7,955 nucleotides of DNA from Prolixibacteraceae bacterium (GTDB lineage: Bacteria; Bacteroidota; Bacteroidia; Bacteroidales; Prolixibacteraceae): the NCBI GenBank assembly GCA_017998095.1, contig JAGODU010000179.1, positions 1 to 7,955 on the forward strand, in the 5' to 3' direction. Below, one piece after another: positions 1 to 7,955 of this stretch. The position numbers and the translations under genes are program-made. The notes below the pieces were generated by a model that saw only the letters and a program-made list of their open reading frames with translations, had not been told where the DNA came from and made no database searches. Numbering within the stretch: the stretch's first letter is position 1; each line of letters opens with the position of its first letter.

Positions 1-40
1 AAAAGTGGGGAGAGAGTGGGGAGGGAGCAAACCGAGCAAG

Positions 41-74
41 AAAAAAGGGGAAGGCTTTAATTGCCTAACCCCTT
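41..74 (-). terminator. Rho-independent terminator downstream of the tRNA-Lys 3' fragment
   Basis: Read on the minus strand, AAGGGG, then an asymmetric A/AA internal loop, then AGGC pair across a 7-nt loop with GCCT and CCCCTT, followed immediately by a run of six T. It lies 8 nt past the tRNA CCA end, where a native tRNA terminator would sit. This supports bases 1-82 being the original flank of the tRNA gene rather than element sequence. Confidence 0.75.
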
Positions 75-82
75 GATTTTAT

Positions 83-127
83 TGGTGAGCCCTGTCGGGA
101 TCGAACCGACAACCTACTGATTAAGAG
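83..127 (-). other. 3' fragment of tRNA-Lys(CTT): probable attachment site (att) of an integrated element
   Basis: On the minus strand this stretch matches tRNA positions 32-76. It has the anticodon loop CTCTTAA with anticodon CTT, the 3' anticodon strand TCAGT, a variable loop, the T stem GTCGG/CCGAC around TTCGATC, the 3' acceptor strand AGGGCTC, discriminator A and CCA. No D arm, 5' anticodon strand or 5' acceptor strand follows at higher coordinates, so it cannot fold as a tRNA. The break falls exactly at the 5' side of the anticodon loop, a known crossover position for tyrosine integrases using tRNA genes. Inference: this is the att copy left on the distal side, and an intact tRNA-Lys lies at the other end of the element beyond this window. 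It could instead be a relic of an older deletion. Confidence 0.8.
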
Positions 128-299
128 AAAATAACCTCCGGGCTTCATAACTCCTCAATGTTATGGTTAATATATTGATTATACAAAATAATTAGCTTTT
201 ATATTCTGTTTGATTTTGGCAAATATTATCCGGATTTTGCTCATTTTTAAATATTTTTCTCACACAGATCCACACACAGTTTACTTTAAATTTTAACTT

Positions 300-397
300 T
301 CCTTACCTTACCACAGAACCTCATTTTAGAGGGTCAATCCCTGCCATCTTGGAGCCAATCCCTAGCCAGAACTGTGCCTAAGGCGGCAAGGATATTT
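300..397 (-). ncRNA. Candidate structured small RNA, unassigned
   Basis: The predicted transcript from the 403-431 promoter would begin near 396. It carries no start codon with a ribosome-binding site. Its first bases CCTTGC (386-391) can pair, with one G-U, with GTAAGG (306-311). Inside that, CACAG (374-378) can pair with CTGTG (312-316). A local hairpin of about 6 bp with one mismatch forms around TAAAAT (near 323-335). This is hand pairing only. No known RNA family is recognised and no clear Rho-independent terminator follows, so the 3' end is arbitrary. Confidence 0.25.
335..363. repeat. Pair of direct repeats CAATCCCT(A)GCCA, 21 bp apart
   Basis: CAATCCCT occurs at 335-342 followed by GCCA, and at 356-363 followed by AGCCA. 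The 21-bp offset is two helical turns. An AGGG/CCCT inverted repeat (330-333 and 339-342) overlaps the first copy. This spacing is typical of paired protein-binding sites; which protein would bind is unknown. Confidence 0.4.
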
Positions 398-402
398 ACT
401 CT

Positions 403-431
403 ATTATGAGATGAACATGCCCTTCAGTCAA
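403..431 (-). promoter_or_regulatory. Sigma-A type promoter reading toward the att end
   Basis: On the minus strand, -35 TTGACT (431-426), a 17-nt spacer, and -10 CATAAT (408-403), each five of six bases from consensus. The predicted start is near 396. There is no open reading frame immediately downstream, only the repeat-rich region and the tRNA fragment, so it may drive a non-coding RNA. Confidence 0.5.
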
Positions 432-494
432 CGACAGTATCACCTCTTACCGTCAAATTTTCGATTGTTACTTCATAATGAAGGTAAAGAAAAA

Positions 495-518
495 TCGCAA
501 AGAACGCAGGTCACTTTT
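495..518. repeat. Dispersed repeat modules AAAGAACGCA and CAGGTCACTTTT (left copy)
   Basis: AAAGAACGCAG (499-509) and CAGGTCACTTTT (507-518) overlap here. The same two modules recur near the right edge in the opposite order (CAGGTCACTTTT at 7793-7804, AAAGAACGCA at 7813-7822). AAAGAACGCAG occurs once more at 1359-1369. All copies lie between genes. They look like shuffled pieces of a dispersed intergenic repeat; no inverted termini or open frame are associated. Confidence 0.45.
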
Positions 519-588
519 ACCTATCCATGAACTTTGCTTTTCTCATCTCAACTTAAGAAGATTTAAAAACTTCCGGATTTATGCCATT

Positions 589-1272
589 TCAAGCCATCCT
601 GATGCCATATACAAGGCTCTCAGAAGCTTTGTTTTGAGCTGTTGACTCAAGGCTTGATTGATCATTGTGATATTTGGATATCTTTGACCGGAATTTTGAC
701 ATGTCATCCGGATAACCGATACCTTCCAATATATCCTCATAAGAAACTGTGCAATCAAGCTTGTCTGCTTTGGGGGGAACATTCTTAATGCAATCCCGCC
801 ACAGCTGGTTGACTTGAAGCCTTTCCAGCATCCCTTTGAAACGGATGCTTTTCATCGCTTGTGGGTCGATTTTGGGGTTGTCGCGGGCTGGATTCCCGCA
901 AGTGCTTAACCTGCCGAAGCCGTGATAGAGGGTGTTCATTTGTAGATATTCGTCAGCTTTCTTAGTCCAGTTGAAATGAAACACGTTAAATCCGGGGGTA
1001 ACTTCAATCAAATAATGGTGAATGTTCTCTCCTTCGCCATCATGTTCAAATTTATCAATCACTGTGAATGTAAACTTATAAATATCATAGAGAATATGTT
1101 TCATGTAATGCCCATTCACGTCACTAACCGAGTATTTATCAATATCAATACATGGATAGAACAACAGACTGTCGCCAATGCGATATTCACCACCTTTCTT
1201 TCTGAGTTTGAAGCCTAACATTCCCTCATTGAAAAATAATGTTCCCAAGTGCGACAAATCATTGGTAGGCAT
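589..1272 (-). CDS. Hypothetical protein, 227 aa, unrecognised
   Basis: I do not recognise this protein. It starts at an ATG preceded by AGAGGAAA about 6 nt upstream and has its own TATAAT promoter, so expression is well supported. It has no signal peptide or membrane segment, and looks cytoplasmic. The first half is mixed beta/aromatic (many Tyr, Phe, His between residues 25 and 115). The second half is charged and helical, with KADKLDCTVSYEDILEGIGY near residues 168-187 and a Ser/Gln-rich, probably disordered tail. Only scattered Cys and His occur, with no catalytic or zinc signature that I can defend. It is the first protein gene inside the att end and is transcribed toward it, a position where cargo or excision genes often lie. 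Function unknown. Confidence 0.8.
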   Translation of the reverse strand: MPTNDLSHLGTLFFNEGMLGFKLRKKGGEYRIGDSLLFYPCIDIDKYSVSDVNGHYMKHILYDIYKFTFTVIDKFEHDGEGENIHHYLIEVTPGFNVFHFNWTKKADEYLQMNTLYHGFGRLSTCGNPARDNPKIDPQAMKSIRFKGMLERLQVNQLWRDCIKNVPPKADKLDCTVSYEDILEGIGYPDDMSKFRSKISKYHNDQSSLESTAQNKASESLVYGIRMA

Positions 1273-1295
1273 GGTATTTCCTCTGTTTCGTGATA

Positions 1296-1324
1296 ATTAT
1301 ATGGTCACAACAAATGTATCATAA
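1296..1324 (-). promoter_or_regulatory. Promoter of the 227-aa gene
   Basis: Perfect -10 TATAAT (1301-1296) with a weak -35 TTATGA (1324-1319) at 17 nt. The -10 lies 23 nt before the ATG, leaving a leader of about 16 nt that holds the ribosome-binding site. The weak -35 suggests either low basal activity or an activator. Confidence 0.5.
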
Positions 1325-1358
1325 AATTGATTATTTTGTGTATTTCAATAACGATAAA

Positions 1359-1369
1359 AAAGAACGCAG
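1359..1369. repeat. Third copy of AAAGAACGCAG
   Basis: An 11-nt exact match to 499-509, lying about 35 bp upstream of the -35 of the 227-aa gene. See the left copy for the full pattern. Confidence 0.35.
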
Positions 1370-1507
1370 CAGTTTTAAAGCACAGAAATGTACGTTTTGA
1401 GTGATATTTCATCTAAATATGGTTGTAATTGAGTCAGGGATTAATCTTATTTCTGGAATCTCTTACATGAGATAGCAGAACATCATTTTCATCAACACAA
1501 ATTGTCA

Positions 1508-1798
1508 TCACCATAATCCAGCCTTTCTGTATGCTTGACTGTCTTCTGGTATTGGTGAAGCAGAAGGCCAACCTTCGCCTTCTAAATCTTGTCTTATATG
1601 GATTTCAGCAGCTTTAGCTGCCCTGTCTCCCCATTTTTTTCTGACTTCTGCAATGCCTCCGAGATGATGCCTAACATGCCTGTGGCGAGTACCATAAGGT
1701 TCTTGACCGAAAAAAGCATCTAACCATAAATGGACTTCCGGAAAGGCTTCTCCTATTTCTTTTTCACATTGTCTACAGTGGTTTTCAAAGCTTGCCAT
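1508..1798 (-). CDS. Small phage/element-type protein with RHRxxRHHxxGI motif (DUF6915-like), 96 aa
   Basis: Two in-frame ATGs lie six bases apart. AAAGG sits directly against the first but about 7 nt before the second (1798), so the second is chosen. The protein is cytoplasmic and rich in His and Trp. It shows W-L-D-A-F-F followed by RHRHVRHHLGGI (residues 39-50 of the 96-aa form) and a later HIRQDL. The layout of W.D, RHR..RHH..GI and HI..DL resembles the short DUF6915-type proteins seen in phages and mobile elements. That assignment is from memory of the motif pattern and is tentative. The clustered His could bind a metal, but this is unproven. It lies about 97 nt downstream of the CxxC module of the main operon with no strong terminator between them, so it may be its last gene. 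Confidence 0.65.
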   Translation of the reverse strand: MASFENHCRQCEKEIGEAFPEVHLWLDAFFGQEPYGTRHRHVRHHLGGIAEVRKKWGDRAAKAAEIHIRQDLEGEGWPSASPIPEDSQAYRKAGLW

Positions 1799-1895
1799 GA
1801 TCATACCTTTTAGTTCAGTGGCACGAGTTCTTTACTATATTATTTCATTTTCCCTTTATTATCCATCTGATTCAAGGAACTGAGATCAGAAGCAA

Positions 1896-2186
1896 TTAGT
1901 CGTAACAGAGTGTGCAGACGATTTGCAGTTCGCTCCCGTTGATGATAGTCACATTATTCCCGAGGTTATGATTAAAAGTGACGCAGTGACCACAATCGAG
2001 TTGAAATTTTTTTTTTGAGAGGATTGATTTTAATGAATCGCAGTCGTCATAGAGCTTGCCTCTATCACAATCCGTAGCTAATCCAGCTAATGGCTCTGCT
2101 ATGGATTTGGAGTTTTTAAAGTTTTTTTTCCGGTTCCTGATAGTCATGATGCGGATGTAATGAGAAATATTCATTGAGTATTTCAT
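1896..2186 (-). CDS. CxxC zinc-ribbon-like module, out of frame with the preceding ribbon-helix-helix gene
   Basis: The C-terminal part reads LDCGHC, then a 24-residue stretch containing NHNLGNNVTIING, then CTLC near the end. This gives four Cys plus a His, a plausible zinc site. The same short 'DCGH...HNLGNN' pattern is familiar from small element proteins. The frame is open from 2186, but its first 25 or so residues overlap the RHH gene and do not look like protein. None of the three candidate ATGs (2186, 2174, 2147) has a ribosome-binding site. The protein-like part begins just past the RHH stop at 2116. Losing one A from the A8 run at 2122-2129 would join the two into one protein of about 126 aa. 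It is therefore probably the 3' half of one gene, separated by a frameshift, polymerase slippage or a sequencing error. An A10 run at 2007-2016 also lies inside it. Confidence 0.55.
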   Translation of the reverse strand: MKYSMNISHYIRIMTIRNRKKNFKNSKSIAEPLAGLATDCDRGKLYDDCDSLKSILSKKKFQLDCGHCVTFNHNLGNNVTIINGSELQIVCTLCYD

Positions 2187-2274
2187 CTAATACATGCGTC
2201 ATGGGCCTCTGCTCTCGTAGCCTCAATTTATATAGTCTCTTGATATTTTCATCACTTATTCTTGGCTGATACAT
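2116..2274 (-). CDS. Ribbon-helix-helix (CopG/Arc-type) small regulator, 52 aa
   Basis: The 52-codon frame starts at an ATG with GGGAGG 8 nt upstream, 20 nt after the stop of the previous gene. The sequence begins MYQPRISDENIKRLYKLRL and continues REQRPMTHVLDEILNEYF. This fits the RHH layout: a short beta strand (RIS), helix A (DENIKRLYKLRLRE), a turn with Pro, then helix B (THVLDEILNEYF). RHH dimers bind DNA through paired strands and commonly act as repressors or relaxosome/partition accessory proteins. In this operon it could autoregulate, and the palindrome at 5025-5042 is a possible target (inference). The frame ends at a TAA four bases past an A8 run, with a zinc-ribbon-like module continuing in the +1 frame. 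Confidence 0.75.
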   Translation of the reverse strand: MYQPRISDENIKRLYKLRLREQRPMTHVLDEILNEYFSLHPHHDYQEPEKKL

Positions 2275-2294
2275 GACTTTGGGCCTCCCTTTTG

Positions 2295-2486
2295 TTACTC
2301 GACATCGACATAATCCATGACAACTGCGAGCAGGTTGTTGTAGTCACCAGCGGTTGCCTTCTCTATAAACTCTTTGGCTTCTCGCTCCATGCCTTCTTTC
2401 ACTAGAGCCTTTCTGACTGTTCCGATAATAAAGAAAGCATTTCCATCACGACCAATAAGCCTAACCTTGGGCCTTTGCTTTTCCAT
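2295..2486 (-). CDS. Small conserved element protein, 63 aa
   Basis: ATG at 2486 is chosen over a TTG two codons upstream because GGAGG lies 7 nt before the ATG. The sequence has RPKVRLIGRDGNAFFIIGTV at residues 5-24, then a charged helical middle (KEGMEREAKEFIEKATAGDYNN) and a C-terminal LLAVVMDYVDVE. I recognise the PKVxLIGxDGNAF pattern as a recurrent short protein of phages and integrative elements, without a known function. It is soluble and acidic at its C-terminus. It sits between the cysteine peptidase and the RHH gene, in the same direction and within 65 nt of both, consistent with one operon. Confidence 0.8.
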   Translation of the reverse strand: MEKQRPKVRLIGRDGNAFFIIGTVRKALVKEGMEREAKEFIEKATAGDYNNLLAVVMDYVDVE

Positions 2487-2549
2487 AAACAATCCTCCAT
2501 TGAATTTGATTTGCCAGTTGAATTTTAATATTGATGGTTTGAGGCTGGA

Positions 2550-3086
2550 TTAATGATCGCTTAAAAAGAAAGTTTCTTTTAATACGAATTTATACGGTTT
2601 TCCCTTTGACTTTTTACCCAATGCGCAACGAGAAATATTGATGGTTTTCATCATTGACGAATCAAACAAGCTTACTCGTTTTGGTGACACAGACCTGATC
2701 ACCGTCCAATGATCCCAGTCGGGGCAATAAAAACCGACAATCACCGCCCTTTTTTCATCCGCCTCAAGGAACGTTTGTATTTCTCCAAAGAAATCCTCCA
2801 CGTTCATTTTATTGACTCCACGAAAAGGATTTTTGCAGGTAATTGAATAGTTCACCATCACCACATTTTTCAAAATGCTCAACACCTCACTTTTTGATAT
2901 CCCAGCGGTAATCACTTTGCTTAAACTTTTCTTTTTCTCCATATGAGTTAAGCACTCCCTAAATAACTTCATGCATTTTTCTTCTGATATAGTCTTTACG
3001 AGCAATCTGGTGGCGTTGATAATGCTATAGACACCGCATAGACCGTCAAGGTAGCCTTGCTCGTAAGGAAGCATGTTCATCGCCAT
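2550..3086 (-). CDS. Papain-like cysteine peptidase-fold protein, 178 aa
   Basis: The ATG at 3086 has AAGGAG 6 nt upstream; a TTG two codons earlier is rejected. The AAGGAG site overlaps the TAA of the DUF2958 gene, so translation is probably coupled. Near the N-terminus, Q10 precedes DGLCGVYSIINA, with C17 at the head of a helix as in papain/C39-type enzymes (Gln oxyanion hole plus Cys nucleophile). WDHWTVI supplies H126 and VSLFDSS supplies D142, in the order and spacing of a Cys-His-Asp triad. There is no signal peptide or membrane segment, so it acts in the cytoplasm. Fold and triad are inferred from motifs. Substrate is unknown: it could process an operon partner, remove a modifier, or act on host defence proteins. 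The length is compact for the fold, with no extra domain. Confidence 0.7.
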   Translation of the reverse strand: MAMNMLPYEQGYLDGLCGVYSIINATRLLVKTISEEKCMKLFRECLTHMEKKKSLSKVITAGISKSEVLSILKNVVMVNYSITCKNPFRGVNKMNVEDFFGEIQTFLEADEKRAVIVGFYCPDWDHWTVIRSVSPKRVSLFDSSMMKTINISRCALGKKSKGKPYKFVLKETFFLSDH

Positions 3087-3097
3087 ATTCAACTCCT

Positions 3098-3418
3098 TTA
3101 TGGGTTCCTGATCCTTTTAATTTCCGCTGCCGGTCTGATTTTCCAATACTCCTCAGGTTCACAGTCGATCTCCAGCCAGCCAATTTTGATGTTTTTCAAC
3201 TCTGCAAAAGAAATGTATCCCCATTCGGCGCATTGATGGTCATCATTCAAAATGGCGTATCCCCAAAACAGATCGTCACCGTCGTATTCGGCAATGTACC
3301 AGTCACAGCCGCCAATAAAGAAATGCAGATAAATCAATTTGTCTTTCAGCGGAACTTGCTCCGTTTCATAAAGCTTTGGTATGCAGTCAAGCTGCTCTTT
3401 CGATGGTACGTTCCACAT
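3098..3418 (-). CDS. DUF2958 domain protein, 106 aa
   Basis: The ATG has AAAGGAGG about 9 nt upstream, which lies inside the ardC-like gene; the two genes overlap by 32 nt in different frames. The protein is a single DUF2958 domain across its whole length: MWNVPSKEQL, then LYETEQVPLKDKLIYLHFFI, GGCDWYIAEYDGDDLFWGYA, and EWGYISFAEL, ending in the W-K-I-R-P-A pattern. The family is common on plasmids, phages and integrative elements, often next to antirestriction genes, and its biochemical role is not known. It is small, acidic, aromatic-rich and cytoplasmic. The tight overlap with the ardC-like gene suggests co-translation and a shared role early after element transfer (inference). Confidence 0.88.
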   Translation of the reverse strand: MWNVPSKEQLDCIPKLYETEQVPLKDKLIYLHFFIGGCDWYIAEYDGDDLFWGYAILNDDHQCAEWGYISFAELKNIKIGWLEIDCEPEEYWKIRPAAEIKRIRNP

Positions 3419-4202
3419 GGTTTGTAACCTCCTTTCCCAAAATAAAGTTAAGAATCATTTCGACATCATGAATAACTTGCAGACACGCCGTTATTGGCTT
3501 TAAATCGGCTTCTGCGGCATATCTTTCGATATACCAGTAGGTATTGCCCAATGTTTTACCCGGCGCTTTGCCGGTTAAATGACAGAGTGCCTGGGCAGAC
3601 AGTTCGGCAGTGATCTCCTGATCCCATCTTTGGCCGGGTTTTAATTTGCCGATGCATAATTCATAAGCGGCATGAGCGAGTTCATGGAAAAAGACTATTT
3701 CCTCCGGGGAAGTGATGGCTATTTCTTTGATGTTGGAAATGTAAACGCCCAAGAATTTCCGATCAGGTGCAATTGTGGAAACGGTTATGCCCCACTCTTT
3801 TGCTCTTTCCAGCAAGGGCAAATCCGGCAAAGGAATTTTCTTTTCATACTCCAATAACGCCCCTTCCGTATCTTCCACCCGAAATACCGGTTTGGCTAAA
3901 AAGCCTTTCAGTATTTCATTTTCATCATCTTCGATTCTCCTTTTTCCTTTCACGAAGTAAGGAACCAGAATGTAGATTGCTTTAGCCCCGCTTTTGACCG
4001 ATCTGCCGACGCGGTTCCACTGCCTGATTCCTCTGGCATCGATAGTTCCCGACAGGAACATGATCATTTTGTTCATGTATGACCACTTATCCGAAGGGAT
4101 ACCGATTACGGGAAACATGGCATAAGCAATAGCTTTGGGAACATCTCCTGTCTTGAACTTTTCCAAAATACTATGCAGCACCATCTGAACTTTGTTGTTC
4201 AT
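3387..4202 (-). CDS. ArdC-like antirestriction protein (ssDNA-binding domain plus zinc metallopeptidase), 271 aa
   Basis: The start ATG has AAGGAGG 7 nt upstream. Residues about 1-85 match the ArdC N-terminal ssDNA-binding domain, including ARGIRQWNRVGRSVKSGAKA followed by the IYILVPY strand. Residues about 130-260 form a zincin domain with HELAHAA (H173, E174, H177) and a downstream acidic helix QEITAELSAQAL, where E200 is the likely third zinc ligand. Family knowledge: ArdC proteins of conjugative plasmids bind single-stranded DNA and protect incoming DNA from restriction. The complete HExxH implies an active peptidase rather than a relic. The gene follows the recombinase by 129 nt with a hairpin between, and overlaps the DUF2958 gene by 32 nt. 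It is slightly shorter than the plasmid ArdC prototype, which is near 300 aa. Confidence 0.88.
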   Translation of the reverse strand: MNNKVQMVLHSILEKFKTGDVPKAIAYAMFPVIGIPSDKWSYMNKMIMFLSGTIDARGIRQWNRVGRSVKSGAKAIYILVPYFVKGKRRIEDDENEILKGFLAKPVFRVEDTEGALLEYEKKIPLPDLPLLERAKEWGITVSTIAPDRKFLGVYISNIKEIAITSPEEIVFFHELAHAAYELCIGKLKPGQRWDQEITAELSAQALCHLTGKAPGKTLGNTYWYIERYAAEADLKPITACLQVIHDVEMILNFILGKEVTNHVERTIERAA

Positions 4203-4233
4203 AAATAAACCTCCTTTCTTTTGATTTAATTTC

Positions 4234-4256
4234 CAGCAGGCGCACCTCTCCTGCTG
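4234..4256. promoter_or_regulatory. 7-bp inverted repeat between the recombinase and ardC-like genes
   Basis: CAGCAGG (4234-4240) and CCTGCTG (4250-4256) form a perfect 7-bp stem with a 9-nt loop. In the minus-strand transcript the 5' arm and loop contain AGGAGAGG. No T run follows on that strand, so it is not a minus-strand terminator. It may be an mRNA processing or stability element, or an operator. On the plus strand it is followed by TGTTTTTG, a weak terminator at best. Confidence 0.45.
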
Positions 4257-4331
4257 TGTTTTTGCTTGGTTAAAAATTGCAGTTTTGTCGGATTAAGCTT
4301 TTGAGTGTGACTAACGGTTAAATAGTGATAG

Positions 4332-4949
4332 TTACTTTAAAATGGTATTGGCTAGGTTTTGGTTCATTTCCGGCATGATATCGGCATATAAACTCGTCAT
4401 AGCGATTGATGCATGCCCAAGTTGCTTTTGCACGAAACGAATGTTTTTTGCCTTGGCTAAAAGTAAAGTGGCGTAAGTATGCCGCGAACTGTGGATGGAA
4501 TAATGTTGTGGCAAACCGGCTTTTATTATGGCTTTTTTGAAGCTGATTTCCAGAGCAGTTGTGGTGTAATGCTTTCCTCCCCTGCCGGCAAGTAATGGTG
4601 AATCAAAATCTATTGGTTCCTTCCATTGCTTCTTGATCTCGATATAACTTTTCAAATGAACGACTATTTCATCATCAAGATAGACATCCCGTTTCTTCCC
4701 CCGTTTCCCGCAATGGACAATCAAATAATTTTCTTTGCCATTTAGGCATAAGTCAATCATTTTAAGAGCAGCAATCTCCATGACTCTTAAACCTGAGTTC
4801 AATGCCAAGTGAATAAGCATGTAACGGTTAACCCACGTCTTTCTTTGCTCTGATAAATCAGCGTTTGCTTCTTTCTTGCAACAACGCAACAGCTTGTTCT
4901 TTTCCTTTACCGATAAAAATTTATCTCTGGTGATTATATAATTATTCAT
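4332..4949 (-). CDS. Tyrosine recombinase/integrase, catalytic domain only, 205 aa
   Basis: The ATG at 4949 is preferred to a GTG two codons upstream because AAGGAG lies 6 nt before it. In the 205-aa numbering the tyrosine recombinase set is complete: R55 in SGLRV, the beta-hairpin K82 in CGKRGKKRDVYL, H153 and R156 in HSSRH, H179 in LGH, and the nucleophile Y188 in SLYAD. It forms a 3'-phosphotyrosyl link with DNA. Only about 50 residues precede the first catalytic Arg, so the SAM-like core-binding and arm-binding domains of typical element integrases are missing. This is the size class of FimB/FimE-type invertases and small Xer-like proteins. The clear start signal and promoter argue it is intact rather than 5' truncated. 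It is the first gene of the main operon. Whether it acts at the tRNA-Lys att site 4.2 kb away is unproven. Confidence 0.9.
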   Translation of the reverse strand: MNNYIITRDKFLSVKEKNKLLRCCKKEANADLSEQRKTWVNRYMLIHLALNSGLRVMEIAALKMIDLCLNGKENYLIVHCGKRGKKRDVYLDDEIVVHLKSYIEIKKQWKEPIDFDSPLLAGRGGKHYTTTALEISFKKAIIKAGLPQHYSIHSSRHTYATLLLAKAKNIRFVQKQLGHASIAMTSLYADIMPEMNQNLANTILK

Positions 4950-5024
4950 AGCCACCTCCTTTTGTGGTTTTTAAACAACTCCATCATAAATTGAATCTTG
5001 ATTAAACAATGAGATAACGGTTGG

Positions 5025-5042
5025 CAGTATTGATAAATACTG
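5025..5042. promoter_or_regulatory. 18-bp palindrome in the leader of the recombinase operon
   Basis: CAGTATT (5025-5031), GATA, AATACTG (5036-5042): perfect 7-bp arms with a 4-bp centre. It starts about 30 nt after the predicted transcription start and 75 nt before the start codon. It could be a repressor operator or an RNA hairpin. TAACGGTT lies just beside it (5015-5022) and recurs at 4312-4319 and 4822-4829. Confidence 0.5.
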
Positions 5043-5077
5043 AAATTACTATTTTACTACTTTTATTTTTCGATAAT

Positions 5078-5106
5078 ATTATAACATAAACTCAAAGAAA
5101 AGTCAA
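5078..5106 (-). promoter_or_regulatory. Strong sigma-A promoter of the recombinase-ardC operon
   Basis: On the minus strand, -35 TTGACT (5106-5101), a 17-nt spacer, and a perfect -10 TATAAT (5083-5078) preceded by TGT, an extended -10 pattern. The predicted start near 5071 leaves a leader of about 120 nt before the recombinase ATG. A 16-bp perfect AT palindrome, TATATTTATAAATATA (5128-5143), lies upstream of the -35 and may act as an UP-like element or binding site. It is the best promoter in the window. Confidence 0.8.
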
Positions 5107-5160
5107 GTTAATTATTTGATATTATTCTATATTTATAAATATATGTAGTGTGGTTTAATG

Positions 5161-5200
5161 AAAAAAAGCAATAAAAAACCCCGCCATTATGACGGGGTTT
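5161..5200 (-). terminator. Rho-independent terminator of the secreted coiled-coil gene
   Basis: On the minus strand, AAACCCCG (5200-5193) pairs with CGGGGTTT (5183-5176), with an inner CAT/ATG extension. It is followed by more T and then a second run of seven T ending at 5161. It lies about 70 nt past the stop codon at 5270 and insulates the recombinase operon promoter from upstream transcription. Confidence 0.85.
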
Positions 5201-5269
5201 CAGAAGTAAATATCTTACGGTAAACCCTGAGTGTTCTTCAAAGGAAATTAGCTAAATGGAATTCCGATA

Positions 5270-6109
5270 TCATTGCATCACCTTAATAACAATGCCAGCC
5301 AGTTGAGCGCTTGGAAAATCTTTTCCATTTATTACGACACGCTCCAACCATATATATCCTTTATCTTTTCGTAAATCATAGAATGCCCATTGAAATTTAT
5401 GTTTTTTCCTTGTTACATTATCAGAGACGCTTTGTTCTAAAAGCCAAAGATTTTCCTTTTTTGTCCATTTTACTTTGCCATTCAGTTTATCTAACAATTC
5501 AACCACAGCAGCCATATTTCCGGACAAACCGGACCCGGCATATGTTTGGAATTGGCCACCTAAAAAATCTTTAGGTGGTCCTGATGATGACCACTTTTGA
5601 ACAAGTGTATTTATTTTGTTTTGCTTTTCAGCAACTTCTTGATTTTGTTTTTGCTTCTCTGCTTCCTTCTGCTTCAAAATCTCCTCTCCAAGTGAAATGT
5701 ACTCACACACGTATCCTCCTATATACTGACCTACTGACCGATTGGAACTAATTTCTTCTTCTGTCAGTTTTACTTTGACTTCTAACTTGTCGGATGTCTT
5801 AATTTGGTACTGTGCTGAAGGAAAATTCTTGACATAAAATGTCAAGCTACAGCCTTCCGGGTCTTTGAAGTATACACTTTCGGTACCTTTCAGTTCTGGG
5901 AATACATCTGAGTTCGCAGGACCACTGTACTCACCTGGAATGTTGTACTCATCACCAATCTTGAAGTTGTATTTTTCACATTGTTTTTGTTGTTTCGGTC
6001 CTGTGGACAATTCATTTCTTTGTTTTTGGGCGGCATACAAGTTATTTTCAGCGGCGACAATTACGGTGATCAAGACGAAAACAAAAAGGATAGTCAATAC
6101 TTTTCTCAT
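5270..6109 (-). CDS. Secreted or membrane-anchored coiled-coil protein, 279 aa
   Basis: I choose the internal ATG at 6109: GGAGG lies 7 nt upstream (6121-6117) and the protein then begins with a typical signal peptide, MRK followed by a hydrophobic core (residues 4-20, ending VIVAA). Possible cleavage follows residue 20, or near residue 27; alternatively it stays as a signal anchor. After it come a Gln/Lys-rich linker (27-45), a beta-rich segment (46-140), a coiled-coil stretch of Lys, Glu and Gln (about 141-172), and a second beta-rich domain (about 178-279) with many Trp and Lys. No catalytic motif is seen. I do not recognise the family. The frame continues upstream to an ATG at 6214 through the remnant of another gene. 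It has its own promoter and terminator, so it is a single-gene unit, possibly an envelope-located cargo protein. Confidence 0.75.
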   Translation of the reverse strand: MRKVLTILFVFVLITVIVAAENNLYAAQKQRNELSTGPKQQKQCEKYNFKIGDEYNIPGEYSGPANSDVFPELKGTESVYFKDPEGCSLTFYVKNFPSAQYQIKTSDKLEVKVKLTEEEISSNRSVGQYIGGYVCEYISLGEEILKQKEAEKQKQNQEVAEKQNKINTLVQKWSSSGPPKDFLGGQFQTYAGSGLSGNMAAVVELLDKLNGKVKWTKKENLWLLEQSVSDNVTRKKHKFQWAFYDLRKDKGYIWLERVVINGKDFPSAQLAGIVIKVMQ

Positions 6110-6214
6110 AATTTTACCTCCATTAATTTGTCCTTTCTTGGCTCCGATAGACTTTGCGTCAAAATAAACCCATATGCTCGTTCCAATGATGACCATAAAC
6201 AACAAATAATCCAT
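6110..6214 (-). pseudogene. Truncated small membrane protein gene fused in frame to the next gene
   Basis: The ATG at 6214 has AAAGGAG 7 nt upstream and begins MDYLLFMVIIGTSIWVYFDA followed by KSIGAKKGQ. This is the N-terminal signature of short membrane proteins that carry WVYFDAKxIGxKKGQ after one hydrophobic segment. In that family, as I recall it, a second membrane segment follows. Here the sequence runs straight into the ribosome-binding site and signal peptide of the 279-aa gene without a stop. It could yield a 314-aa form with two hydrophobic segments, or it may simply be a remnant that supplies the promoter-proximal start. A short leader peptide role is also possible. Confidence 0.5.
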
Positions 6215-6236
6215 TGCTTTTCTCCTTTCTTATCAA

Positions 6237-6265
6237 ATAATAACACGTTTAATTGAAGGTGTCAG
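6237..6265 (-). promoter_or_regulatory. Promoter of the secreted coiled-coil gene
   Basis: On the minus strand, -35 CTGACA (6265-6260), a 17-nt spacer, and -10 TATTAT (6242-6237), each five of six bases from consensus. It lies 23 nt before the ATG at 6214. The 11-bp palindrome GTGTCAGACAC (6259-6269) covers the -35 box, so a bound protein there would block the promoter. Confidence 0.6.
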
Positions 6266-6269
6266 ACAC
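6259..6269. repeat. Perfect palindrome GTGTCAGACAC over the -35 box
   Basis: The arms GTGTC and GACAC flank a single central A. It occurs once in the window. It could be an operator. The GTGTCAGACAC core also resembles short dispersed palindromes found between genes in many bacteria, so a genome-wide repeat is the alternative reading. Confidence 0.4.
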
Positions 6270-6313
6270 GGTTATTTCGTATTTTTAATATAATCGTAGT
6301 TTTCTTAAATAAA

Positions 6314-7126
6314 TTAGACATGGCCTCTTATCATTTTTTCACTACAAATCATGGTTACTCCGAAAGCGGATTCGCTTTCTGCATATAGTGCATCACCACC
6401 AATAACAGAGCATTCACTGTTCGTTAACTTTTCAATTTCATCAATGATTGGATGAAGATGCTTAGGAATGGAAAAGCCGTCACCTAAATTTGAAGAAGCA
6501 ATGTAGAAAACATCTGATGCCCGTTTTATGGTGTCAATGTTGCCCGATAAGAATTGCCGAAAGTTAGGCAGATATTCAGTCGGTTGACTTTCAAAAAATA
6601 AATATCTTCCAGTGGTGCTTGATAGGGCTTGCTTCATATCAGAAAAGTCGCGGGAAAGAAGCCTTGGAAATATCCATACGCGGCACATGTCTTTCATAAA
6701 TTGTGTGATCTTTCTTTCGCCATCCTTTTTCTCAAAGAAAATAATCGCTTCATTAGTTGAGGATTGAACTCGACAAGCCATGTCTCCAGTACCCAATAAA
6801 ACTAACGTGAAGAGAAAAGAGCACATGTTTTCGGAAATTAATTTCTCTCTGGTTGCCCAAAAGAATGAGTCTTGCTGAGAACCGAGGAGAAATATTATAT
6901 CTCTGTTGGAAAGGTCCGGAATCGGCTTATATCGATCTTCATTAGGCAATATGACGGTTAACAGTGGAGTTTCATTTTCTGCGAATAAATCTGGATCATC
7001 TTCACGGTACTTCTGAAAACATTTTATAAGCTCTTTAAATTCTATATTGACGCATTGCCCGATCTCTTGGCCTTTTCCGCCAATACCAATAAAACATGCC
7101 TTAAAATCAAATGATGCTTGATCCAT
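6314..7126 (-). CDS. Divergent FtsZ/tubulin-superfamily protein, 270 aa
   Basis: An N-terminal strand FIGIGGKG (12-19) matches the FtsZ T1 loop position. RDIIFLLG (75-82) matches the strand DMVFIAAG that precedes the T4 loop. LLSRDFSDMKQALS (156-169) matches the T7 catalytic loop and helix H8 (FtsZ consensus DFADVRTVMS), with D160 and D163 kept. The C-terminal part (FYIASS, helix PIIDEIEKLT, strand ECSVIGG, strand AFGVTMICS) follows the FtsZ C-terminal domain order. The T4 signature GGGTGTG is replaced by SQQDSFFW, so GTP binding is doubtful. It is shorter than the FtsZ core (about 310 aa) and lacks the C-terminal tail. Family placement is by eye and is the main uncertainty. The ATG has no clear ribosome-binding site and follows the 192-aa gene by 38 nt, suggesting coupled or low expression. 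An inactive scaffold or filament cap is possible. Confidence 0.6.
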   Translation of the reverse strand: MDQASFDFKACFIGIGGKGQEIGQCVNIEFKELIKCFQKYREDDPDLFAENETPLLTVILPNEDRYKPIPDLSNRDIIFLLGSQQDSFFWATREKLISENMCSFLFTLVLLGTGDMACRVQSSTNEAIIFFEKKDGERKITQFMKDMCRVWIFPRLLSRDFSDMKQALSSTTGRYLFFESQPTEYLPNFRQFLSGNIDTIKRASDVFYIASSNLGDGFSIPKHLHPIIDEIEKLTNSECSVIGGDALYAESESAFGVTMICSEKMIRGHV

Positions 7127-7164
7127 TATATTCTATTCATTATCTGTTTCATAATAGTTACTAA

Positions 7165-7743
7165 TTAATAGTCAACTTTTTTAAATAGCATTAGAAGCAC
7201 TTCTCGCATTCTTTCCTTTGATACGACAATATCTTTGTCTTCATGTGCGGACATCCTTTTACGAGTAAGGAATTTATCCACATAGAGGTTAAGTATCCAA
7301 AGAGCAGCTTGGACAGAAACGTGCGCTAACCATTCATAACGGCGAGGTCGTTTTATGGAAAATCCTTTCGCCATCGAATGAGAGAATTGATATTGACCGC
7401 AATCCAAACGACGAGCATCGCATTTATTCAGCGATACAGTTGACTCAATAGGGAATCGTAATTCTTCAGTCTCATCGACTTGATTTAGATAAAGGGTAAA
7501 ATCGCCATCTTCATGGGAATTAGGCAATTTTAATCTAGTTGTATTAATGGATTGATATTCTATTTCTCGCTCAAGAACATCAAAGAGTTGTTGATAAGTT
7601 AGACGTATGGTTTCGGTTGGAGCACTTTTACGAAAATAAGATATGTTTCCCGAGGTAAGTTCTATGTGTCCTTTTACTTCACTCGTCTTCCCGACAGCAT
7701 CAATTCTCATGAAAAATTTTGATTTTGATTCTCTTCTCGCCAT
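7165..7743 (-). CDS. Hypothetical protein, 192 aa, partner of the FtsZ-like gene
   Basis: The ATG at 7743 has GAGGA 8 nt upstream; a TTG five codons earlier overlaps that site and is rejected. The family is not recognised. It has a basic N-terminus (MARRESKSKFF), then a beta-rich half (about residues 10-120) with GHIELTSGNISYFRKSAPTE and LTYQQLFDVLEREIEY. The helical C-terminal half contains RRYEWLAHVSVQAALWILNL, YVDKFLTRKRM and a final amphipathic helix MREVLLMLFKKV. There is no signal peptide. The WLAHVSVQAALWILNLYV stretch is hydrophobic but broken by polar residues, so a buried or membrane-touching helix is possible. It is followed 38 nt later by the FtsZ-like gene on the same strand, so the two probably form a two-gene operon. 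No strong promoter is visible between 7744 and the window edge. Confidence 0.8.
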   Translation of the reverse strand: MARRESKSKFFMRIDAVGKTSEVKGHIELTSGNISYFRKSAPTETIRLTYQQLFDVLEREIEYQSINTTRLKLPNSHEDGDFTLYLNQVDETEELRFPIESTVSLNKCDARRLDCGQYQFSHSMAKGFSIKRPRRYEWLAHVSVQAALWILNLYVDKFLTRKRMSAHEDKDIVVSKERMREVLLMLFKKVDY

Positions 7744-7792
7744 AATGCACGTCCTCAATTTAATTTATAAACTGTATTTCCTCATCATTGCA

Positions 7793-7822
7793 CAGGTCAC
7801 TTTTCACGACGGAAAGAACGCA
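7793..7822. repeat. Dispersed repeat modules CAGGTCACTTTT and AAAGAACGCA (right copy)
   Basis: CAGGTCACTTTT (7793-7804) and AAAGAACGCA (7813-7822) are exact copies of the modules at 507-518 and 499-508, in the same orientation but swapped order. They sit in the leader region of the 192-aa gene. The nearby TCATCATTGC is also repeated (7782-7791 and 7939-7948). Confidence 0.4.
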
Positions 7823-7955
7823 AAGCGATCAGGCATCTGCCCCCCTCCCCATTGTCAAGACAAAAAACATGCAAAGTTAAGGTGTGTTTTATAAGTCTGC
7901 ACGTTGTTTAAAAATCCTTTTCCCTTTACTCATTTCTATCATCATTGCTCAGAGG

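Follow-up and report, generated by a model that had tools for sequence, protein, structure and literature searches.

A diverged FtsZ-superfamily protein that has probably lost its nucleotide site, and its neighbour gene, in a Prolixibacteraceae contig

What could an FtsZ-like protein do when the loops with which FtsZ holds its nucleotide are missing? The question is raised by two adjacent genes in a 7,955-nucleotide stretch of DNA from a Prolixibacteraceae bacterium (assembly GCA_017998095.1, contig JAGODU010000179.1, positions 1 to 7,955; the whole of this stretch is called the window below). An earlier note, made from the sequence letters, had proposed a two-gene unit in which an unrecognised gene for a 192-residue protein stands 38 nt before the gene of an FtsZ/tubulin-like protein of 270 residues. 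Both open reading frames were found as described, on the minus strand and with a gap of 38 nt between them:

6314..7126, minus: 270-residue protein of the FtsZ/tubulin fold with a very probably dismantled nucleotide site, called pseudo-FtsZ here (open reading frame, model and profile comparison)
7165..7743, minus: 192-residue neighbour with no Pfam or NCBIfam match (open reading frame); residues 3-64 resemble a stand-alone plasmid protein of 64 residues

Scans of both proteins against Pfam, NCBIfam and PADLOC gave nothing at E ≤ 1, so the 192-residue protein is indeed unrecognised, and PHROGs gave a single match, for the 270-residue protein, at E 0.098. Both frames are nevertheless real protein families. 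A collection of 5.8 billion proteins, searched by a method that needs shared exact words, yielded 22 relatives of the 270-residue and 11 of the 192-residue protein (the window's own excluded), and a profile search added four to the former, giving families with 26 and 11 relatives. After removal of the fragments P0022, P0024 and P0039 from the 27 proteins, 24 were aligned; these full-length members have 258-270 residues and 35 invariant columns, with pairwise identities down to 34 %.

The 270-residue protein is almost certainly a diverged member of the FtsZ/tubulin superfamily, in fold and by homology. In a search of the PDB its AlphaFold2 model, computed from an alignment of its own family only and of moderate confidence, picked out FtsZ and TubZ (best E 9e-9), and the N- and C-terminal halves of the model each matched the FtsZ/tubulin fold separately. 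The C-terminal half is modelled in the order helix, strand, helices, strand, helix, strand, strand. In a viral structure library the top three rows were FtsZ/tubulin-like (best E 2.0e-6). From the fourth row onward (E 4e-4 or worse) came RusA-like and other entries, most of which cover about half of the model; these were set aside as generic.

The second line of evidence is a profile-profile comparison of the 24 relatives with ten control FtsZs, taken from E. coli and from plasmid records. It scored 42.9 (E 3.7e-5) and aligned residues 140-262 with E. coli FtsZ 189-313, a span beginning at the T7 loop and ending with the C-terminal domain. A rerun scored 43.6, compared to a maximum of 21.1 in 100 column shuffles and 14.1 with the reversed profile. 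The C-terminal half alone gave 44.4 (maximum of 100 shuffles 17.2), whereas the N-terminal half alone gave 11.9, a value equalled by 72 of 100 shuffles and thus no similarity above chance. When the family was split into four diverged members and the remaining 20, the two disjoint sets scored 41.9 and 34.8, respectively, with the register unchanged. The member P0001 by itself reached 15.8, no better than shuffles, and the family of the 192-residue partner 12.7. In a profile search of the PDB, FtsZ (8grw) appeared in the same register at only E 1.5, ranked below an unrelated poxvirus protein, cowpox CPXV018 (E 0.25), whose match was judged to be chance. Scans with single members were at noise level: the FtsZ model TIGR00065 was met in 5 of 24 (best E 0.021, with one unrelated model scoring alike) and FtsZ_C in 2 of 23 (best E 0.095), next to SapB_1 in 5 of 23 (best E 0.064) and Cupin_NOL9 in one (E 0.023). 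The Pfam Tubulin model matched none of 23 members, and the window's own 270-residue protein was named by neither Pfam nor NCBIfam. Because unrelated models score alike, the single-sequence FtsZ hits were dropped as evidence, and the case for the relationship is the profile comparison together with the model.

The features of the protein that bear on its function are the following:

6344..6709, minus: FtsZ-like C-terminal half (residues 140-261) with T7, helix 8 and the C-terminal domain, by profile comparison
7070..7087, minus: T1-like turn G-x-G-x-x-G after strand 1 (residues 14-19), by the model
6869..6889, minus: place of T4 (residues 80-86), where a conserved short G-S-Q turn replaces GGGTG(S/T)G
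6635..6670, minus: T7-like loop with the beginning of helix 8 (residues 153-164); the first aspartate is invariant in the family, the second present here

The FtsZ/tubulin relationship that had been read from T1 and T7 loops and from the C-terminal strand order is thus borne out by the structure matches, a check proposed at that time, and by the profiles. T7 and the strand order stood well above chance. The three glycines of the T1-like turn are kept in 23, 21 and 21 of the 24 relatives; since the N-terminal half scores at shuffle level, T1 was discarded as sequence evidence and the support for it is the predicted structure. The earlier note would have given up the relationship for a model lacking the GTPase and the tubulin C-terminal domains: the model contains both, but the nucleotide-binding domain is stripped down and has no T4.

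Neither the lack of T4 nor the changes in T7 across the family had been noticed before. The T4 signature GGGTG(S/T)G occurs in 0 of 24 relatives as against 9 of 10 FtsZs; at its place a strand is followed by the G-S-Q turn and a helix. In the model, strands 2 and 3 are only about 15 residues apart (59 to 75), an interval in which FtsZ holds T2, helix 2, strand 3 and T3, and the T2/T3 segment thus appears to be deleted. Of the stretches compared within the family, T7 shows the highest conservation (0.87 vs 0.75 overall). Its first aspartate is kept in all 24 members, and in all 24 the asparagine of FtsZ has become serine; the second position is aspartate in nine (the window's protein included) and cysteine in 12, so that 15 of 24 lack the second aspartate. 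The canonical N-x-D-x-x-D is accordingly absent from the family, while seven of the ten control FtsZs show the strict pattern; among these ten the first aspartate never varies, and conservation is 90 % or more for the second and below 90 % for the asparagine. The C-terminal linker and conserved peptide of FtsZ are also absent: the proteins stop just past the last strand and have no tail, which had been claimed and is supported by both the model and the family lengths.

The nucleotide site has thus very likely been lost, and, judged by sequence and model, nucleotide binding has probably gone with it. We infer that pseudo-FtsZ cannot be a GTP-driven motor. Compared with FtsZ, the family shares the two-domain fold and a T7 loop, helix 8 and C-terminal domain that align by profile, and differs in T4, in T2/T3 (by the model), in the T7 residues and in the tail. 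It is a compact FtsZ-superfamily family whose divergence is the inverse of that of FtsZl1, with the C-terminal half kept and the nucleotide loops gone. In the excerpted text of Makarova and Koonin (2010, PMC2875224; published work is cited here from excerpts throughout), FtsZl1 and FtsZl2 are likewise diverged members of the superfamily with no biochemical role assigned, and they keep the N-terminal domain with T4, differ C-terminally and carry a long extra region. The 270-residue family is the opposite, with T4 in none of 24 members and no long extra C-terminal region.

TubZ, in plasmid partition, and PhuZ, in phage centring, are encoded on mobile elements. With them pseudo-FtsZ shares the tubulin-like fold and, as argued below, a likely mobile-element location, and a motor of their kind for DNA segregation or cargo positioning, with the 192-residue protein as a new TubR-like adaptor, would be one way to read the pair. 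A filament motor of the TubZ/PhuZ type is made unlikely by an N-terminal domain in which T4 is absent from 24 of 24 members, and there is neither a GTP signature nor a long C-terminal tail. PhuZ differs further in that tblastn found no match to the 270-residue protein in 50,697 phage records. No centromere-like repeats were seen: around the start of the pair and upstream of it (7700-7955, 256 bases) there are only two two-copy repeats, and the tandem rows in 4956-7955 number only five, all short and low-scoring and with periods of 6-10, so that no iteron array is seen in a window that stops 212 bases upstream of the pair. TubR structures are present in the PDB, and a PDB profile search with the 192-residue family matched no sequence, which agrees with the claim that an obvious TubR-type partner is lacking. 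Conservation of the pairing, moreover, is weakly supported by the evidence given below, and we regard a motor as very improbable.

How firmly do the two genes belong together? The 192-residue family (n = 12) is uniform, its other members being 49-84 % identical to the window's protein, and its AlphaFold model has a predicted local distance difference test score (pLDDT) of 42, too low for the model to be of use. Possible homologies were not accepted for LARA_dom (3 of 12 members, best E 0.0042), for Vps36 (1 of 12, E 0.043), for two further single Pfam hits at E 0.2, or for PHROGs hits of the relatives (1 of 12, best E 0.0011). Pairing was deduced from equal longest contigs, a value given per cluster that conceals shorter contigs. 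It is 13344 for both window proteins and 2412 bases for both P0011 and P0026, whereas for P0013, P0016, P0017, P0019, P0022, P0036 and P0038, all on contigs of at least 4 kb, no longest contig equals that of any of the 11 partner relatives. By a rough estimate the chance of one such match is several per cent, which is not negligible. The two-gene unit of the earlier note is therefore matched by one further candidate pair, P0011 and P0026, which points weakly to conservation in one other lineage, and goes without a matching partner in seven other relatives. Peptide-pattern scans confirmed no relatives of either family in a genome contig collection or in IMG/VR, scans that use a few patterns only and can miss distant copies; plasmid records held no match for the 270-residue protein, and phages none for the 192-residue protein either.

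When FtsZ assembles into filaments, each subunit docks by its T7/C-terminal face on the GTP-bound face of the next. Of these two faces pseudo-FtsZ would have kept the former and lost the latter. With the surroundings of T7 and the first aspartate invariant and its own pocket lost, the loop could serve the nucleotide face of another protein, most simply host FtsZ. An FtsZ active site is completed by the T7 loop of the adjoining subunit, and changes at N208, D210 or D213 suppress assembly of S. aureus FtsZ (PMC8936486). Pseudo-FtsZ would dock by its T7/C-terminal face onto the GTP face of host FtsZ; once docked it could accept no further subunit, and would therefore be a cap or a sequestering agent. 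Host division might thereby be delayed, e.g. when the mobile element replicates, is transferred or is under stress, and the 192-residue protein would be the cognate regulator, adaptor or antidote. We put the probability that it caps or sequesters host FtsZ at roughly 35 %. The loss of the other T7 residues argues against a strong docking, or would make the contact a non-hydrolysing one; beta-tubulin likewise lacks the second acidic residue. The fuller picture, a family borne on mobile elements with the GTP face deleted, the docking face kept, a non-hydrolysing cap and a regulator gene adjacent, can be held only tentatively.

SulA and MciZ are small inhibitors that block FtsZ assembly, and ARC3 of plant chloroplasts has an FtsZ-like domain and is larger than the 270-residue protein. 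To our knowledge SulA, MciZ and Gp0.4 of phage T7 are not homologues of FtsZ; what pseudo-FtsZ might have in common with them is blocked assembly as the outcome. Gp0.4 blocks FtsZ assembly (PMC13423816) and ARC3 regulates it negatively (PMC5471200, PMC13335998), so proteins that block this assembly occur naturally. ARC3 would be the counterpart in action if host FtsZ is capped, and differs in its C-terminal MORN region (PMC5471200), a comparison made by description.

It is also conceivable that the protein assembles with itself, into filaments or a small homo-oligomer, needing no nucleotide or using an unusual ligand in its place, and is a scaffold of the mobile element with the 192-residue protein as adaptor. 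The N-terminal domain and the T7/C-terminal half are both conserved among relatives as little as 34 % identical in pairs, so each of the two faces may still serve a purpose. Filaments formed by a novel mechanism have been suggested for the diverged FtsZl1 (PMC2875224). The loops of the partner face of FtsZ, however, appear to be gone, with T4 absent and no room for T2/T3 in the model, and none of the 24 relatives, at 258-270 residues, has a tail. We consider a scaffold doubtful.

Loss of the FtsZ nucleotide signature would also fit a decaying or neutral remnant of FtsZ, or an old fold in another function such as metabolite binding or catalysis, and the N-terminal domain resembles the Rossmann-like 3i0z as much as it resembles FtsZ. 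Decay is contradicted by the 26 relatives, of which 24 are full-length and uniform: uniform length and invariant columns at such low identities argue that the gene is not decaying, and a moonlighting use is possible. Taken together, a remnant or a changed function seems unlikely.

A further proposal starts from the neighbour. Its residues 3-64 match, with 45 % identity and E 8e-11, a stand-alone protein of 64 residues on a plasmid of Methylomonas koyamae. PF00091 found nothing on the whole Methylomonas record, and none of the 23 features shown is annotated as FtsZ-like; the N-terminal module therefore occurs apart from an FtsZ-like gene. Otherwise the module was found only as itself in plasmids and had no match in IMG/VR by peptide-pattern scans, and its matches in phage records (E 1-4) were judged to be chance. 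On the plasmid (7155-10709) a PDDEXK nuclease resembling PDC-S26, a 193-residue protein, the module and a 150-residue protein follow one another, and a WYL regulator lies upstream of them; this is possibly an uncharacterised defence-type operon. Such company of its nearest named relative would suit a role in phage defence or counter-defence, in which pseudo-FtsZ, as sensor or decoy, would mimic FtsZ, be hit by phage FtsZ inhibitors and signal through the 192-residue protein. Some phage proteins are known to bind FtsZ, and a defence protein is triggered by one FtsZ complex (PMC13423816). Neither window protein matches PADLOC, however, no FtsZ-like gene was seen with the module in the Methylomonas record by PF00091 or by annotation, and the 270-residue protein found no match among the plasmid records, which leaves a defence role quite improbable.

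If pseudo-FtsZ does act on host FtsZ, it would be a division-control weapon built from the division protein itself, a natural dominant-negative and a tool to ask which FtsZ face drives treadmilling. If it does not bind host FtsZ, it would be a case of the fold put to nucleotide-free use. The open-licence literature searched yielded no description of an FtsZ family that is deficient in its nucleotide site and carried by mobile elements, and such a family may have been overlooked since surveys target the N-terminal GTPase domain. A recent survey of FtsZ/tubulin evolution gathered homologues by the N-terminal Tubulin model PF00091 (PMC9871819); the 270-residue family has lost the PF00091 part and kept the C-terminal half, and would escape a search of this kind.

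FtsZ paralogues were also seen on large plasmids, in Pseudoalteromonas (L009) beside genes for a WYL protein and a recombinase, in Pontibacillus (L006) beside a DivIVA-domain gene and, in diverged form, in Marinomonas (L010) beside a PcfJ-domain gene. On a plasmid of Rhizobium sp. SL42, positions 4001-4330 match only FtsZ residues 206-315 (35.5 %), in a stretch with a hypothetical gene at 4022-4405 (127 residues); by sequence this is perhaps a remnant, a piece of FtsZ with the C-terminal half only.

The location of the pair is described by the remaining features of the window:

83..127, minus: 3' half of a tRNA-Lys(CTT), read as an attachment-site remnant (37-base pattern, ARAGORN)
1508-1804, minus: 98-residue DUF6915-like protein (E 1.4e-5; 25.6 bits, just below the Pfam cut-off of 27)
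3098-3418, minus: DUF2958-like protein (E 0.033), following the ArdC-like gene
3387-4202, minus: ArdC-like anti-restriction protein (phrog_7245, E 1.1e-5)
4332..4955, minus: 207-residue tyrosine recombinase (PF00589, E 2.6e-26)
5175..5201, minus: terminator-like hairpin, 12-bp stem and T-rich tail, after the 314-residue gene
5270..6214, minus: 314-residue gene, next downstream on the same strand, 99 nt past the pseudo-FtsZ stop

The 5' half of the tRNA is missing at 83-127, and the element should therefore lie to the right, where the tyrosine recombinase and the ArdC-like gene are found. The gene pair is likely inside this mobile element, with the right end beyond the window. The 37-base pattern from the tRNA remnant was found in 14 IMG/VR contigs; ARAGORN identified a complete tRNA-Lys at the site in three of them (L017, L018 and L022; some others are cut by contig ends), and six of the 14 carry, in the stretches examined, an integrase related to that of the window. 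An Rfam match to 'Plastid-ycf2' on 85-145 (E 0.015, under the gathering score) was discarded in favour of tRNA-Lys. NCBIfam listed 13 models for the recombinase, all under their own cut-offs.

The 314-residue gene is possibly read through from the pair. Its frame has two hydrophobic stretches near the N terminus and, judged by eye, its true start may be an internal ATG near 6109. Terminator-like sites in the window are at chance number, with two found compared to 2.0 expected. A 180-residue protein at 2550-3092 on the minus strand, which has no Pfam match, contains an N-terminal G-L-C-G-V-Y and a later W-D-H-W, motifs that by eye are suggestive of a papain-like cysteine peptidase.
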